Below are positions 6,985 through 63,400 of a stretch of 64,000 bases of DNA, piece after piece. Each line of letters starts with the position of its first letter. Within the stretch, counting starts at the first letter, position 1. The notes under the pieces are model-generated. The model saw only the letters and a program-made list of their open reading frames with translations, was not told the origin of the DNA and did not search any database. Origin of the DNA: Chaetoderma sp. LZ-2023a (lineage: Eukaryota; Mollusca; Caudofoveata; Chaetodermatida; Chaetodermatidae). The stretch spans positions 75,907,062 to 75,971,061 of the forward strand of contig CM067366.1 in the NCBI GenBank assembly GCA_034401795.1, in the 5' to 3' direction. A program made the translations under genes and the position numbers.

Positions 6985-7345
6985 CAACCCCCACTAAAGT
7001 AGATGACATCATAACCAATTACGTCACATGTAGAGTGATTTAACAATCATGATGCCGTATTCTCGATCATGAAGCTCAAAAAGTCCATCAAGTGTACGAA
7101 TTGTATGTCTTTGAAGAATTTCCAATTTAATAAACATAATGTAGTGAATAATGTAGAACTGATTTGACTGGGAGCTGTTGCTGCCATGGGCAGCAATAGC
7201 ACCCAGTCAAATTGGTTTCAAGATATTCAACAGGTTACCTGTATAGTTACCTTGAAATTGGGAGACTGGGAATTCAGTTTCAGATTATTTAAATATATCC
7301 AAAACTCCACAAAAATGTACAGCTAGAAATGGAGCACCTATTGTC
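6985..7345 (+). mobile_element. FB element copy, plus, at the start of R1
   Basis: CRE-like sites are mutated (ATGACATCATAACC). The core at 7144-7231 keeps a hairpin with CTGTTGCTGCC opposite GGCAGCAATAG. The same FB position relative to R1 is occupied at 30,060 and 43,915. Confidence 0.8.
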
Positions 7346-7740
7346 CGATGTATCGATACATTGATATATCATATGTTCCAATGATCAATGATGGATGCCA
7401 CCTCCATAGGTGGGAAGGGTGGAATCATACACAGATTGCTATGAGATCAGGATTTATTATTATGAAATCAGCACCCTCTCGGTAGACATGCAAAACTACC
7501 GAAAAATTGTTAAATCCGAACTCTCTCAAAGTAGGTCGTTTGCATTTCAGGAGGTAAATATGGACCAGTCTATCAGGGTATTAAACTATTATATGTGTAC
7601 GCATCCTCTTACTATTTATTATTTGTCACTGCACATATTCTCGATATCCACTGCACATTGGCCCCGATAGCGGTACAACATATATCCCGTGGCAATGAAG
7701 TAGCACGGTATGCCTCATATTTTGATTCATGATTCGCGCC

Positions 7741-8760
7741 TCCCCCCCCCCTCTCTCTCCCTCTCTTCCTCTGCTTCCCTTCCTCCTCCCCTATGTCTCT
7801 ATCTCTATCTATCTCTATCTCTCTCTCTCTCTCTGTCTCTCTCCCTCCCTATATCTCTCTCTCTCACTCTCTCTCTCTCTCTCGCTCTCTCTCTCTCTCT
7901 CTCTCTCTTTCTCTCTTTCTCTCTCTCTCCATCTCTCCATTCATCTTCTCTCTCTCTCTCTCTCTCTCTCTCTCTGTCTTTCTCTCTTTCTCTCTCTCTC
8001 TCCATCTCTCCATTCCTCTTCTCTCTCTCTCCCCCCTCCCTCCCTCCCCCTCCCTCCCCCTCCCTTCTCTCTCTCTCTCTCGCGCGCTCTCTCTCTCTCT
8101 CTCTTTCTCTCTCTCTCACTCGATCTCTTTCTCCAGTTTTCTTCTTCCCTCTCTATTCTGATTCTCTCTCTCTCTCTCTCTCTGTTCCTCTGCCCCCCCC
8201 CCTCTCTCTCCCCTCTCTCTCTCTCTCCCTTCCTCTGCCCTCCTCCCTCCCTCTCTCTCTCTCTCTCTCTCTCTCACTCCATCTCTTTCTCCCGTTTTCT
8301 TCTTCCCTCTATATTCACCCCCCTCTCTCTCTCTATCTCTCCATCTCTCCATTCATCTTCTCTCTCTCTCTCTCTCGCTATCTCGCTCCCGCTCTCTCTC
8401 TCTCTCTCTCTCTCTCTCTCTCTCGCTCTCTCCATCTCTCCATTCATCTTCTCTCTCTCTCTCTCTCTCTCTCTCTCTCTCTCTCTCTCTCTCTCTCTCT
8501 CTCTCTCTCGTTATCTCGCTCCCGCTCTCTCTCTCTCTCTCTCTCTCTCTATCCTCTCTCTCTCTCTCTCTCACTCTCTCTCTCTCTCTCTCTCTCTCTC
8601 TATCTCCCCATCTTTCCATTCATCTTCTCTCTCTCTCTCTCTCTCTCTCCATTCATCTTCTCTCTCTCGCTCTCTCTCTCTCTCTCTCACTCTCTCTCTC
8701 TCTCTCCCTCTCTCTCTCTCTCTCTCTCTCTCTCTCTCTCTCTCTCTCTCTCTCTCTCGG
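7741..8760. repeat. TC-rich compound microsatellite, about 1 kb
   Basis: Runs of TC are interrupted by repeated words such as CCATCTCTCCATTCATCTTC, which gives an imperfect higher-order pattern of about 120-170 bp. All long frames here are Ser/Leu or Arg/Glu dipeptide artefacts. It lies inside R1 and is absent from the two other R1 copies. Confidence 0.95.
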
Positions 8761-9438
8761 TCTCGCTCTACTATTTATACCTCTTTTCAGTCATTCTCAA
8801 TCGCTCTCTCGCAACACATTTCTTCCAACCACGTCAACATGTGACTCCGCGTCTCTAATACACCCAACCATTTTAAATGGTTATAAAGCTCTTTCTTACC
8901 TACTTGATATGTAGTAAAAGTGGATGTGACACCGTCTCCCTGTAACGCAGTGGTCAACATCAAGATTGCAATTCTCCGAAAGATTTGCCGTCACAATTAC
9001 AAGATCATGACTTGACCTTACGCATGCCAGCCATCGGAAATGAGTTATGGAAATATAATGACATATCATCAGAAAGATTGATTTACTATTGCTAATGAGT
9101 CCAGCAGTAAACACAATCATTCATCCAAATTTCCTCGCGCTTTAAGCGTATTGTCATTCTATTGCTGTTAGACCTAATATTACTATTCGCGCTTTGAATT
9201 GTATGTACAGAACACCTTTGATTAGGTATATCCAATGCCTACACCCATGATGCGCGTAGACGACCCCACTGCATGAATGTGTTAAAGGTGCAACATAGTA
9301 CATAAAGTTAGTAGTATTATCTAAACTCAGAATGTGGAAGACCCTTAAGGAGCTACACACTCTGGCAAAGGACAAGGAACAGTGTTCTCTGAAGGAGAAT
9401 GCCTGATTGCGGGTCCATTGTAGCCATAGAACGTAGTG

Positions 9439-9471
9439 CATCATCATCATCATCATCATCATCATCATCAT
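9439..9471. repeat. CAT trinucleotide microsatellite
   Basis: About eleven CAT repeats lie inside R1. The corresponding places in the other R1 copies (near 30,830 and 45,450) keep only a short remnant. Confidence 0.9.
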
Positions 9472-10159
9472 AGTCAACAAGACATTTTATGATATTTGTA
9501 GGTGTTGCTTAAAGTCGCCACCATCTTAAATAGCTAGATGCCACAGAAGGTAGCTGAAGTTTATGTATTTTACCGGAAATTGTTCAATTGCTTCTTCTTC
9601 CCAAATTGACGGATTTCAACCAAATTTGTCTGGAAGGATCCTATATACTATATACTGTTTAAAAGCTTTATATCATACTCTGATTTAGAGATATTTAGAG
9701 CTTGTTGTCATGGAGAGTAACATTTCTACAAGTGAATCGGTAAATTTAAAGGGCATATTAAATCGTTATCTCTCTATGTATTTCTGTACAGTTTTTGTTA
9801 GCCTGACAAAACTGTCTCAATTGATATTAATCAGCTATCCTGCCCGTTGCCTGTCACGTACTAAAAGTAATACAACTTCAGTTGAGATAAATAGAGGGTG
9901 TCCCACTTGTCACTTGGAATGAACCTTCCTTTTAAATCCTGCGAACATGCCGATGGTATCCTCTGAGAACAGTAAACGATTCTCTTCATTGTCTGAGCTT
10001 TAACGAATTGCCCATTGTGTTACCATCAATTGTGCCTTTTAAGTCGTTTTGGGAAATCTATTTAAGGCTGATTTGGTGAGACGTCTTGTCAGCATTGAAA
10101 TTGAACAATGATACAGCGCATGTTTATGAAGATTGATTGACTGGAATGTAATGTTTATG

Positions 10160-61949: not shown

Positions 61950-62040
61950 TATCAAATCTCAATTTCAAGACAATCATACGGGTCTGTAATCTGTTGAATA
62001 CTTTAAAACTAATTTGACTGGAAGCGGTTGCATCATTTGT
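61950..62040 (-). mobile_element. FB left-half fragment inside the hAT
   Basis: The AATTTCAAGACAATCATACG leader and ATCTGTTGAATACTTTAAAA arm, as far as GACTGGAAGCGGTTGC, match FB; the rest is missing. It was either captured by the hAT or inserted into it. Confidence 0.7.
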
Positions 62041-62499
62041 GCCTTAGTATGAGTAACGTATTACGTTAAATAATGCAAAATACCAATAAATGTATGAATG
62101 TGCATTGAAGAATTACACTTATTCTCTAAGGATGTGAAGATAACACCTTGACTGATGCAATTTTAAAACTCTAAAATTTGCATCGTATTATGTTTCCTCA
62201 ATGGACACATCACATCTGTAGTGGCATGTAGCCTTACTAAGTTATGAATATGAATAGGTGAATAGAATGATTGTTTAATACATGTTCACAATCTTATTAT
62301 CTGTCTTACCAAAATTCGCATCTCAGCAGTTTTAAGTTAAACAAATTTCTCTGGTGGAGCAACCCCCCCCCCCCCCCCACACCTCCGAAACACACCACCC
62401 ATTTTTTTGGAAGGGCCCCCCTCTGAGAGTCCCTCCCAGACCTACCCCAAGGACCACCCTTCATGATTGTATTATAGATTAATATTATTTGTTTATCTT

Positions 62500-62755
62500 C
62501 TCGATGGCACCACTTGCACATCCAGAGGTAAATATGGCCCTACAGTTGGCTGTTAAATTATTCCATTTTAGCCATTTAATTTCATTTTTCTGTTCACTCA
62601 GTTTTTTATCCAGTCCTGTTTTAATAACTGAATGGCTAAAAAAATTGACTGAGCAAAAAAAATGTAATTAAATGGATAAAAAATAATTTAACAGCCAACT
62701 GATGCTTCATATTTACCTCTGGAAATGCAGGAAATGCCATCTGCGAGCATCTAGA
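62500..62755. repeat. Internal inverted repeat of the hAT
   Basis: CCAGAGGTAAATATG at 62,522 pairs with CATATTTACCTCTGG ending about 62,723. Pairing continues inward through AGTTGGCTGTTAAATTA and outward to GATGGC/GCCATC. Each arm is about 100-120 bp, so the centre can form a long hairpin. Confidence 0.8.
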
Positions 62756-63244
62756 TTTCGAAATTTTCCAGAGGGACCCCCTTAGGTTTTGCCTTCCGCT
62801 TCCCTTCAACTCCACACATATTCTTTGCCCCCGGCGCTGGTAAGGCTTAATGCGGCGCTGGTTAGATATGATACAGCTGGCCTGTGTCCAAATGTCTGAT
62901 ACTCATTATGCCAAGGCAGCAATCTAATAGGGGAAACGAAGACCCCACAGAGACAATCACAACATCTTCTCAAGTGAAAAATCAATCGTATGGATGCTAA
63001 TCTGATAATGGTTAGGTGGACTTACTATGTCTATGGTAGTGTATAGCAGATTGAAGACCTGTAGACAATCTTGACACAAACTAGCCGGTGTATCGGTAGG
63101 ATTCGAGGCATTCAATCTGCCACTCAAGTATCTGCTGTCATCTTCATATTATGTCGCTTGTTATATGGCATCACAATCAAATGACGTAGGCCCGACAAGA
63201 AAGTGTCAAAGATCCAACAGAATGTGTTTGAATTATACGTAGTT

Positions 63245-63400
63245 GGTGAAATTACAGTTTAATAATCATTCTACTTAACATTTTGAAACTAATTTTAAAT
63301 TAGCTATTACTGCCCTAGCCAACAATATATCGCCGCATAGGTAGTTACAAAATAGTGAACACATTACCTGTATAGTTATCATGAAATGAATCGGTCTTCC
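63245..63400 (+). mobile_element. FB element at the end of R2 unit 3, truncated
   Basis: A diverged core at about 63,266-63,355 and the ATTACCTGTATAGTTATCAT flank match 27,081 and 40,708. The GC-box side is replaced by the LINE fragment after about 63,400. Confidence 0.68.

Follow-up and report, generated by a model that had tools for sequence, protein, structure and literature searches.

The window that we describe here, a 64,000-nucleotide stretch of the caudofoveate mollusc Chaetoderma sp. LZ-2023a (C8:75,907,062-75,971,061 in an assembly of 2.44 Gb), holds a succession of long units in which the same modules, labelled R1 to R6, follow one another head to tail, and it is this array that concerns us. 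The array in fact overruns the window. When the window was compared with itself together with 120 kb to its left and 130 kb to its right (314 kb in all; window coordinates are used throughout, also for positions outside it), we could draw the boundaries of four units, U1 to U4 (7.4-28.3, 28.3-42.7, 42.7-67.5 and 67.5-77.1 kb), and of a stub, U5, that runs to ~79 kb; from there to 194 kb the self-comparison brought up no array. The window itself contains no N at all, while a 500-N gap (77,146-77,645) separates U4 from U5, and because the right end of the array stops at this assembly gap the copy number is a lower bound. We define U4 by its unit-start sequence (67.7-68.9 kb), R1 (70.6-71.0 kb) and R3 (74.5-75.1 kb); R4 and R2 are missing from this unit, which ends at the scaffold gap. 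At the left edge of U1, homology with U4 extends to 7616, and a 974-bp TC tract (7796-8769) lies inside the edge.

An initial annotation, made from the letters of the window, had proposed a unit of 14-15 kb repeated about 2.75 times. The six anchors on which it drew are indeed where it put them, in the order and orientation that it gave, and self-comparison reproduces each to within a few tens of bases, but the period and the count have both had to be given up. In that comparison R1 aligns at 9659-10151, 30969-31438 and 45557-46047 and R3 at 18076-18442, 32923-33287 and 52992-53337, while the R4 anchor falls at 21827, 35031 and 54570. The units span 9.7-24.7 kb, and the offsets between corresponding modules (13.2-21.3 kb for U1-U2, 13.8-22.6 kb for U2-U3 and 32.7-36.2 kb for U1-U3) do not make a true period; the fourth unit and the fifth-unit stub (77.65-79.05 kb), moreover, lie beyond the window. 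U2 is without most of the spacer between R1 and R3, which U1 and U3 have in common.

Collinear, locus-private modules

The order of the modules is kept to a very high degree. Using high-scoring segment pairs (HSPs) that were retained as low-copy by a local-depth filter against dispersed repeats, we found concordant order in 55/55 pairs of HSPs for U1-U2, 135/136 for U1-U3, 66/66 for U2-U3, 45/45 for U3-U4 and 28/28 for U2-U4, and in each of these five unit comparisons none of 2000 shuffles matched the observed concordance. For U1-U4 the figure is 36 of 45 pairs, equalled in 21/2000 shuffles; all nine discordant pairs trace to a single junction HSP (28699-28848 with 67469-67619), which a boundary at 28270 reassigns to U2-U4. 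Orientation tells the same story, since low-copy HSPs 3-70 kb apart within 7-80 kb are forward in 73 cases and inverted in two, compared with one forward and four inverted under the same filter in the right flank (80-194 kb, 114 kb), the only control region, which contains 10 kb of N. The earlier statement that no anchor breaks the order holds for the anchors it listed, and fails for an extra, inverted copy of R3 (6567-6839) that falls just outside the interval of the orientation count, where it shows the left border of the array to be rearranged.

The modules are also private to the locus. Genome-wide searches covered R1 to R4 and the unit start, and returned four places for R1, all in the array (40 of 278 candidates scored); five for R3, all at the array and including the inverted copy; three for R2 and three for the unit-start query (42898-43290), all in the array; and three in the array for R4, together with one 37-bp match on C9. 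A further 36 rows of the R1 search align solely within query positions 4-246, which hold a dispersed repeat lying upstream of the conserved part of R1. Save for these rows and the match on C9, everything is confined to 6.5-79 kb, so that the five modules do not behave as an interspersed repeat and show none of the dispersed copies of a transposable element family; because they are confined to the array genome-wide, they are not transposons. The scattering of modules through the genome, which the initial annotation had named as the observation that would overturn its reading, did not occur for these five.

The units are thus adjacent, collinear and in the same orientation, as tandem segmental duplications in the broad sense are, and we think it likely that an old tandem segmental duplication is what the region represents: four collinear head-to-tail units, and the stub of another, composed of locus-private modules, with no gene detected in them. 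The idea of a long-period tandem array that has aged and filled with insertions is borne out in essence by the collinearity, by the privacy of the modules, by unit-to-unit homology that covers 45-61% of the units and by mobile-element remains specific to single units, a zf-RVT piece in U3 being one example.

Divergence and duplication history

HSPs between units average 70.9-76.8% identity (U2-U3 76.8%, U1-U2 75.2%, U2-U4 73.1% and U1-U3 73.0%). In the 1292 columns that could be aligned in four units, from R1, the stretch downstream of it (R1dn) and R3, U1 and U3 are 79.4% identical and U2 and U4 76.9%, with the other four pairs at 74.3-75.5%; the quartet U1U3|U2U4 is recovered in 693, 987 and 1000 of 1000 bootstraps for R1, R1dn and R3, respectively. 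The 3175 columns common to U1, U2 and U3 (seven modules) likewise place U1U3 (79.0%) above U2U3 (77.6%) and U1U2 (76.9%), and the narrow range of the U1-U3 offsets also counts for a history in two steps. On this view a first tandem duplication would have copied an ancestral segment whose length we put, very roughly, at 15-20 kb, and a second may have copied the block of two units, U1+U2, giving U3+U4, with unequal exchange between misaligned copies as the simplest process. Exchange would then have ceased, leaving the units to drift to 71-79% identity, to gain insertions of their own and to lose pieces, among them the missing spacer of U2. We think that most of the array is functionless today.

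Several observations weigh against the two-step history. R2c pairs U2 with U3 in 1000/1000 bootstraps, and at the unit start U2U3 (74.1%) are closer than U2U4 (62.8%, 433 columns). Upstream of R1 the Kimura two-parameter distance is 0.257 for U2U3 and 0.459 for U1U3, the homology of U1 there being doubtful, and mean HSP identities are higher for neighbours (U1-U2, U2-U3) than for alternates (U1-U3, U2-U4), as calculated over different stretches. R4b, R2 and R2b are indecisive, with U1U3 closest in 705, 503 and 454 of 1000 bootstraps. Module trees in conflict with unit order were the second observation that the initial annotation had named as overturning its reading, and here the outcome is divided: R1, R1dn and R3 agree with one another, and R2c and the unit-start region disagree. 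Monomer duplication followed by duplication of a two-unit block, for which three modules speak and against which two do, is the simplest account, and the mixed histories of the modules could come from local conversion or from break points within units. We also considered a kinship of U1 with U2 that appeared in our first alignment of R4, and dropped it; the 5' part of that alignment has no BLAST match in U3, and the trimmed R4b gives it no support.

A conserved island in R1

Plain neutral decay of all modules sits uneasily with R1, which is conserved above its surroundings. Gap-free columns that are invariant in four units number 285/397 in R1, 198/417 immediately downstream and 269/478 in R3, and the difference in favour of R1 was reached by 0/10,000 block permutations. 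In 60-base steps, mean pair identity is 0.79-0.89 across 31,000-31,420, compared with 0.45-0.67 upstream and mostly 0.54-0.76 downstream, with a left border that is visible only against U1 and U4, U2 and U3 being 0.73-0.85 alike upstream too. R1 terminates in a 27-mer that is identical in all four units and that, allowing up to three mismatches, occurs at four places in the genome, one per unit (its reversed control gave 0). The 27-mer contains TGATTGAC, which we take to resemble a TALE homeodomain site. Because R1 had been picked as the best anchor, part of its excess reflects the way in which the initial annotation and BLAST singled it out, and local conversion is another possible cause. Single-base indels interrupt R1 and argue against a coding exon; as judged from its alignment, the island may be a constrained element that is still under selection.

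Coding and RNA content

We looked for genes in a variety of ways. From a six-frame listing of 54 open reading frames (ORFs) of at least 100 amino acids, nine were tried against Pfam, and matches were obtained in two, both of them mobile-element-like: the zf-RVT piece already mentioned and a GIY-YIG match below the cut-off, a domain of the kind found in Penelope-like elements. No convincing codon signal emerged from the six-frame ORFs, from ORF-against-ORF blastp among the matches listed or from codon-position counts, and tblastx on the 314 kb produced nothing convincing among the best 70 of 154 stop-free pairs. A shuffled-column codon test (221 alignments, 559 overlapping windows above the score floor, 60 shuffles each) was equally unconvincing, with a best z of 3.1 in this array and 4.4 in a second array upstream. 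A reading of R1 on the + strand past a splice-acceptor-like site, made by eye from the alignment, was discarded, since it meets an early stop in U2 and its amino acids change freely.

The searches for RNA genes were no more rewarding. At the gathering score Rfam has no family in the window, and at E values up to 1 the interval 29-43 kb gives five sub-threshold microRNA models, none convincing; ARAGORN, run with the bacterial code, found nothing in the window, and a hairpin scan yielded no convincing candidate for an RNA gene. RNAalifold on R1, with four sequences only, saw compensatory change in 2/95 pairs and an unfavourable covariation term. On the strength of these sequence comparisons the units are apparently non-coding, and small exons could be missed.

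Features of the array and its surroundings

The positions of the units, modules and mobile-element matches are collected in Table 1. Microsatellites recur at homologous places: in each of the four units R3 is followed, directly or after a short interval, by a TC tract (75128-75338 in U4), and a GA tract stands just before R2 in U1-U3, and these seem to predate the duplications, outlasting the 20-30% divergence around them. An AGT/TAG tract adjoins a segment common to U1 and U3 (12,388-12,945; 47,673-47,850), which is weak as evidence of history because U2 lost that spacer. Frequent in this neighbourhood is a dispersed, internally palindromic repeat of ~400 bp (60285-60698 is one example); because its copies at 29536-29911 and 43296-43698 fall inside one U2-U3 alignment, they probably predate the U2-U3 duplication.

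Table 1. Units, modules and mobile-element matches of the array (window coordinates)
Feature	Position	Strand	Remarks
Unit U1	7400-28270	+	20.9 kb; 48% covered by low-copy homology with other units
Unit U2	28271-42720	+	14.5 kb; 61% covered by low-copy homology with other units
Unit U3	42721-~67.46 kb (window ends at 64000)	+	24.7 kb; 45% covered by low-copy homology
Unit U4	67.5-77.15 kb, outside window		9.7 kb; 53% covered by low-copy homology
Stub U5	77.65-79.05 kb, outside window		Start of fifth unit; 70-78% identical to start of U4
R1 in U1	9659-10151	+	83% to U3, 82% to U2; invariant 27-mer 10115-10141
R1 in U2	30969-31440	+	Conserved island ~31000-31440; invariant 27-mer 31403-31429
R1 in U3	45557-46047	+	Invariant 27-mer 46011-46037
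R3 in U1	17870-18457	+	TC tract 18458-18666 directly after
R3 in U2	32743-33287	+	TC tract 33425-33520
R3 in U3	52808-53376	+	CT tract 53378-53434
Extra R3 copy	6567-6839	-	Inverted; at left border of array
R4 in U1	21680-22588	+
R4 in U2	34888-35475	+
R4 in U3	54570-55338	+
R5 in U2	36805-37407	+
R5 in U3	56853-57976	+	Two aligned pieces: 56853-56960, 57482-57976
R2 in U1	24703-25600	+	GA tract 24115-24702 before
R2 in U2	38924-39820	+	GA tract 38675-38882 before
R2 in U3	59641-60529	+	GA tract 59183-59633 before
R2c in U1	26659-27188	+	Homologues 40292-40825, 62861-63388
R6 and unit-start module of U2	28274-30067	+
R6 and unit-start module of U3	42725-43855	+
zf-RVT match	50,373-50,969		In U3; Pfam E 3.6e-8
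GIY-YIG match	14,614-15,639	-	In U1; below cut-off, E 0.0087

A second private array, unrelated to the first, lies upstream, from -119 to -36 kb, and consists of nine copies of a ~1.2 kb core, all forward, which are 0.65-0.79 identical in pairs over the part compared and non-coding by their indel pattern. Its low-copy HSPs are forward in 199 cases and inverted in 17 (a probable assembly duplication included), and a genome search with one core gave 18 matches, all forward and all at C8:75,788,592-75,869,573. The short inner branches of the core tree look as if this array had been made within a short time. Seven low-copy HSPs are common to the two arrays, of which the ones near 41.4 and 66.6 kb look by eye like a retroelement. 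Between them runs a weaker series of short repeats (-20 to -1 kb; seven forward and zero inverted low-copy HSPs). Within the upstream array, at -99789 to -87664, a stretch of ~6 kb occurs twice, 97-100% identical in its aligned pieces, around a 500-N gap (-93927 to -93428), and these are probably overlapping contig ends, not a true duplication. Some ORFs in the right flank looked by eye as if they might be viral; neither Pfam nor PHROGs returned a match for them, and we make no claim of the kind.

Two observations concern the assembly at large. A COX1 search of the assembly brought up only contig C18 (4,762,156 bases), where long open frames hold two matches to the COX1 family, one of them beside neighbours that read by eye like a bacterial cyo operon. 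Among the relatives retained from GTDB the best are gammaproteobacteria at 67-68% identity, and a bacterial chromosome, perhaps a symbiont's, seems to form part of the assembly. The haemocyanin domain PF14830, which belongs to a family of molluscs, has 44 matches in the assembly and none in any of 14 control genomes, in keeping with a mollusc as the source, with clusters at C8:80.83-80.92, 96.37-96.40 and 96.99-97.02 Mb, at C17:62.63-62.66 Mb and on C1610. In two of these clusters, C8:97.0 Mb and C17:62.6 Mb, the domain scores agree exactly or almost exactly and run in mirrored order, which suggests either that one was recently copied from one chromosome to another or that the assembly has duplicated it.

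Alternative explanations

The most attractive alternative is a tandem gene family with one gene per unit, either protein-coding with short or fast-evolving exons or a long non-coding RNA, in which the modules would be exons, promoters and introns and the gene would have driven or preserved the duplication. The invariance of R1 relative to the sequence downstream and its 27-mer unchanged in four units are what such a gene might leave behind, as is a weak codon-like pattern on the minus strand in some R1 pairs. Against this stand the best codon-test z of 3.1 among 559 windows, the single-base indels that cut R1, the mobile-element character of both ORFs with a Pfam match, an unsupportive RNAalifold result and the want of any Rfam family at the gathering score, and on balance we consider a gene family unlikely. 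About as doubtful, in our view, is a hot spot of ~200 kb where tandem amplification acted separately on adjacent, unrelated stretches of non-coding DNA and here multiplied a constrained element, R1 with its 27-mer; the array would then consist of copies of a regulatory element or of a non-coding RNA gene and would not be inert debris.

Much further down the scale come two more mundane accounts. That the modules are transposable-element pieces which repeatedly inserted here by chance gains something from the dispersed repeats at high local depth, which make up 7-12% of U1-U4, and from the query 10121-10900, which matched a dispersed repeat on many contigs, as did the upstream part of the R1 query. 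Yet the five searched modules are essentially absent elsewhere in 2.44 Gb, and order and orientation are kept, so that this account is already largely refuted and in our judgement highly improbable. An assembly artefact, through unmerged haplotypes or overlapping contig ends, is brought to mind by a pair of neighbouring 500-N gaps, the first of which separates U4 from U5 while the second is flanked by the two near-identical copies of the upstream ~6-kb stretch. The units, however, differ by 21-29%, more than is expected of haplotypes, the window is without N and the U5 stub is only 70-78% identical to the start of U4, and we would be very surprised if an artefact were the answer. An old tandem segmental duplication remains the reading that we prefer.

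Comparison with known systems

Ordinary tandem segmental duplications are collinear, direct and locus-private, acquire later indels, and are usually recognised at 90% identity or more, often around genes; recent ones are defined operationally by at least 90% identity over at least 1 kb. The array resembles them in its collinearity, direct orientation, privacy and later insertions and deletions, and differs in being far more diverged (HSP means of 70.9-76.8%, four-unit columns of 74.3-79.4%) and in that no gene was found. No comparable mollusc array came up in the titles and abstract openings among the papers listed, which is not to claim that none is in print. We think that two adjacent locus-private arrays suggest bursts of local, non-coding tandem amplification that leave long-lived fossils, and the R1 island offers a concrete test of whether such arrays multiply functional non-coding elements.

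The large tandem arrays of the human genome (Warburton et al. 2008, PMC2588610) are perhaps the closest relatives in kind, since the sections of that survey on which we draw describe long head-to-tail units at one locus, 38.8 kb in the case of AMY, and higher-order organisation in several array types. They also report 96 additional arrays with units >2 kb, and because 53 of these are counted as holding genes or repeated exons, arrays not so counted exist. Two identity values in a table of the survey are above 90.3% and above 99%, whereas the units described here are 71-79% alike and heavily interrupted, with no gene found. The same source puts the detection limit of Tandem Repeats Finder at 2 kb, so that arrays built of 10-25 kb units readily escape notice, and a duplication screen set at 90% would pass over copies as diverged as those here.

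Macrosatellites such as D4Z4, DXZ4 and NBL2 share with this locus a tandem array of long, complex units, which according to a review (PMC8122249) measure up to a few kilobases, with 12-100 copies of DXZ4. Here, by contrast, units of 9.7-24.7 kb occur in about four copies with no visible homogenisation, and in place of the many near-identical units and concerted evolution by which a macrosatellite is recognised we find four units and a stub at 71-79% identity. Events of this kind are known; what sets the present one apart is how old it is and that a similar array lies next to it.

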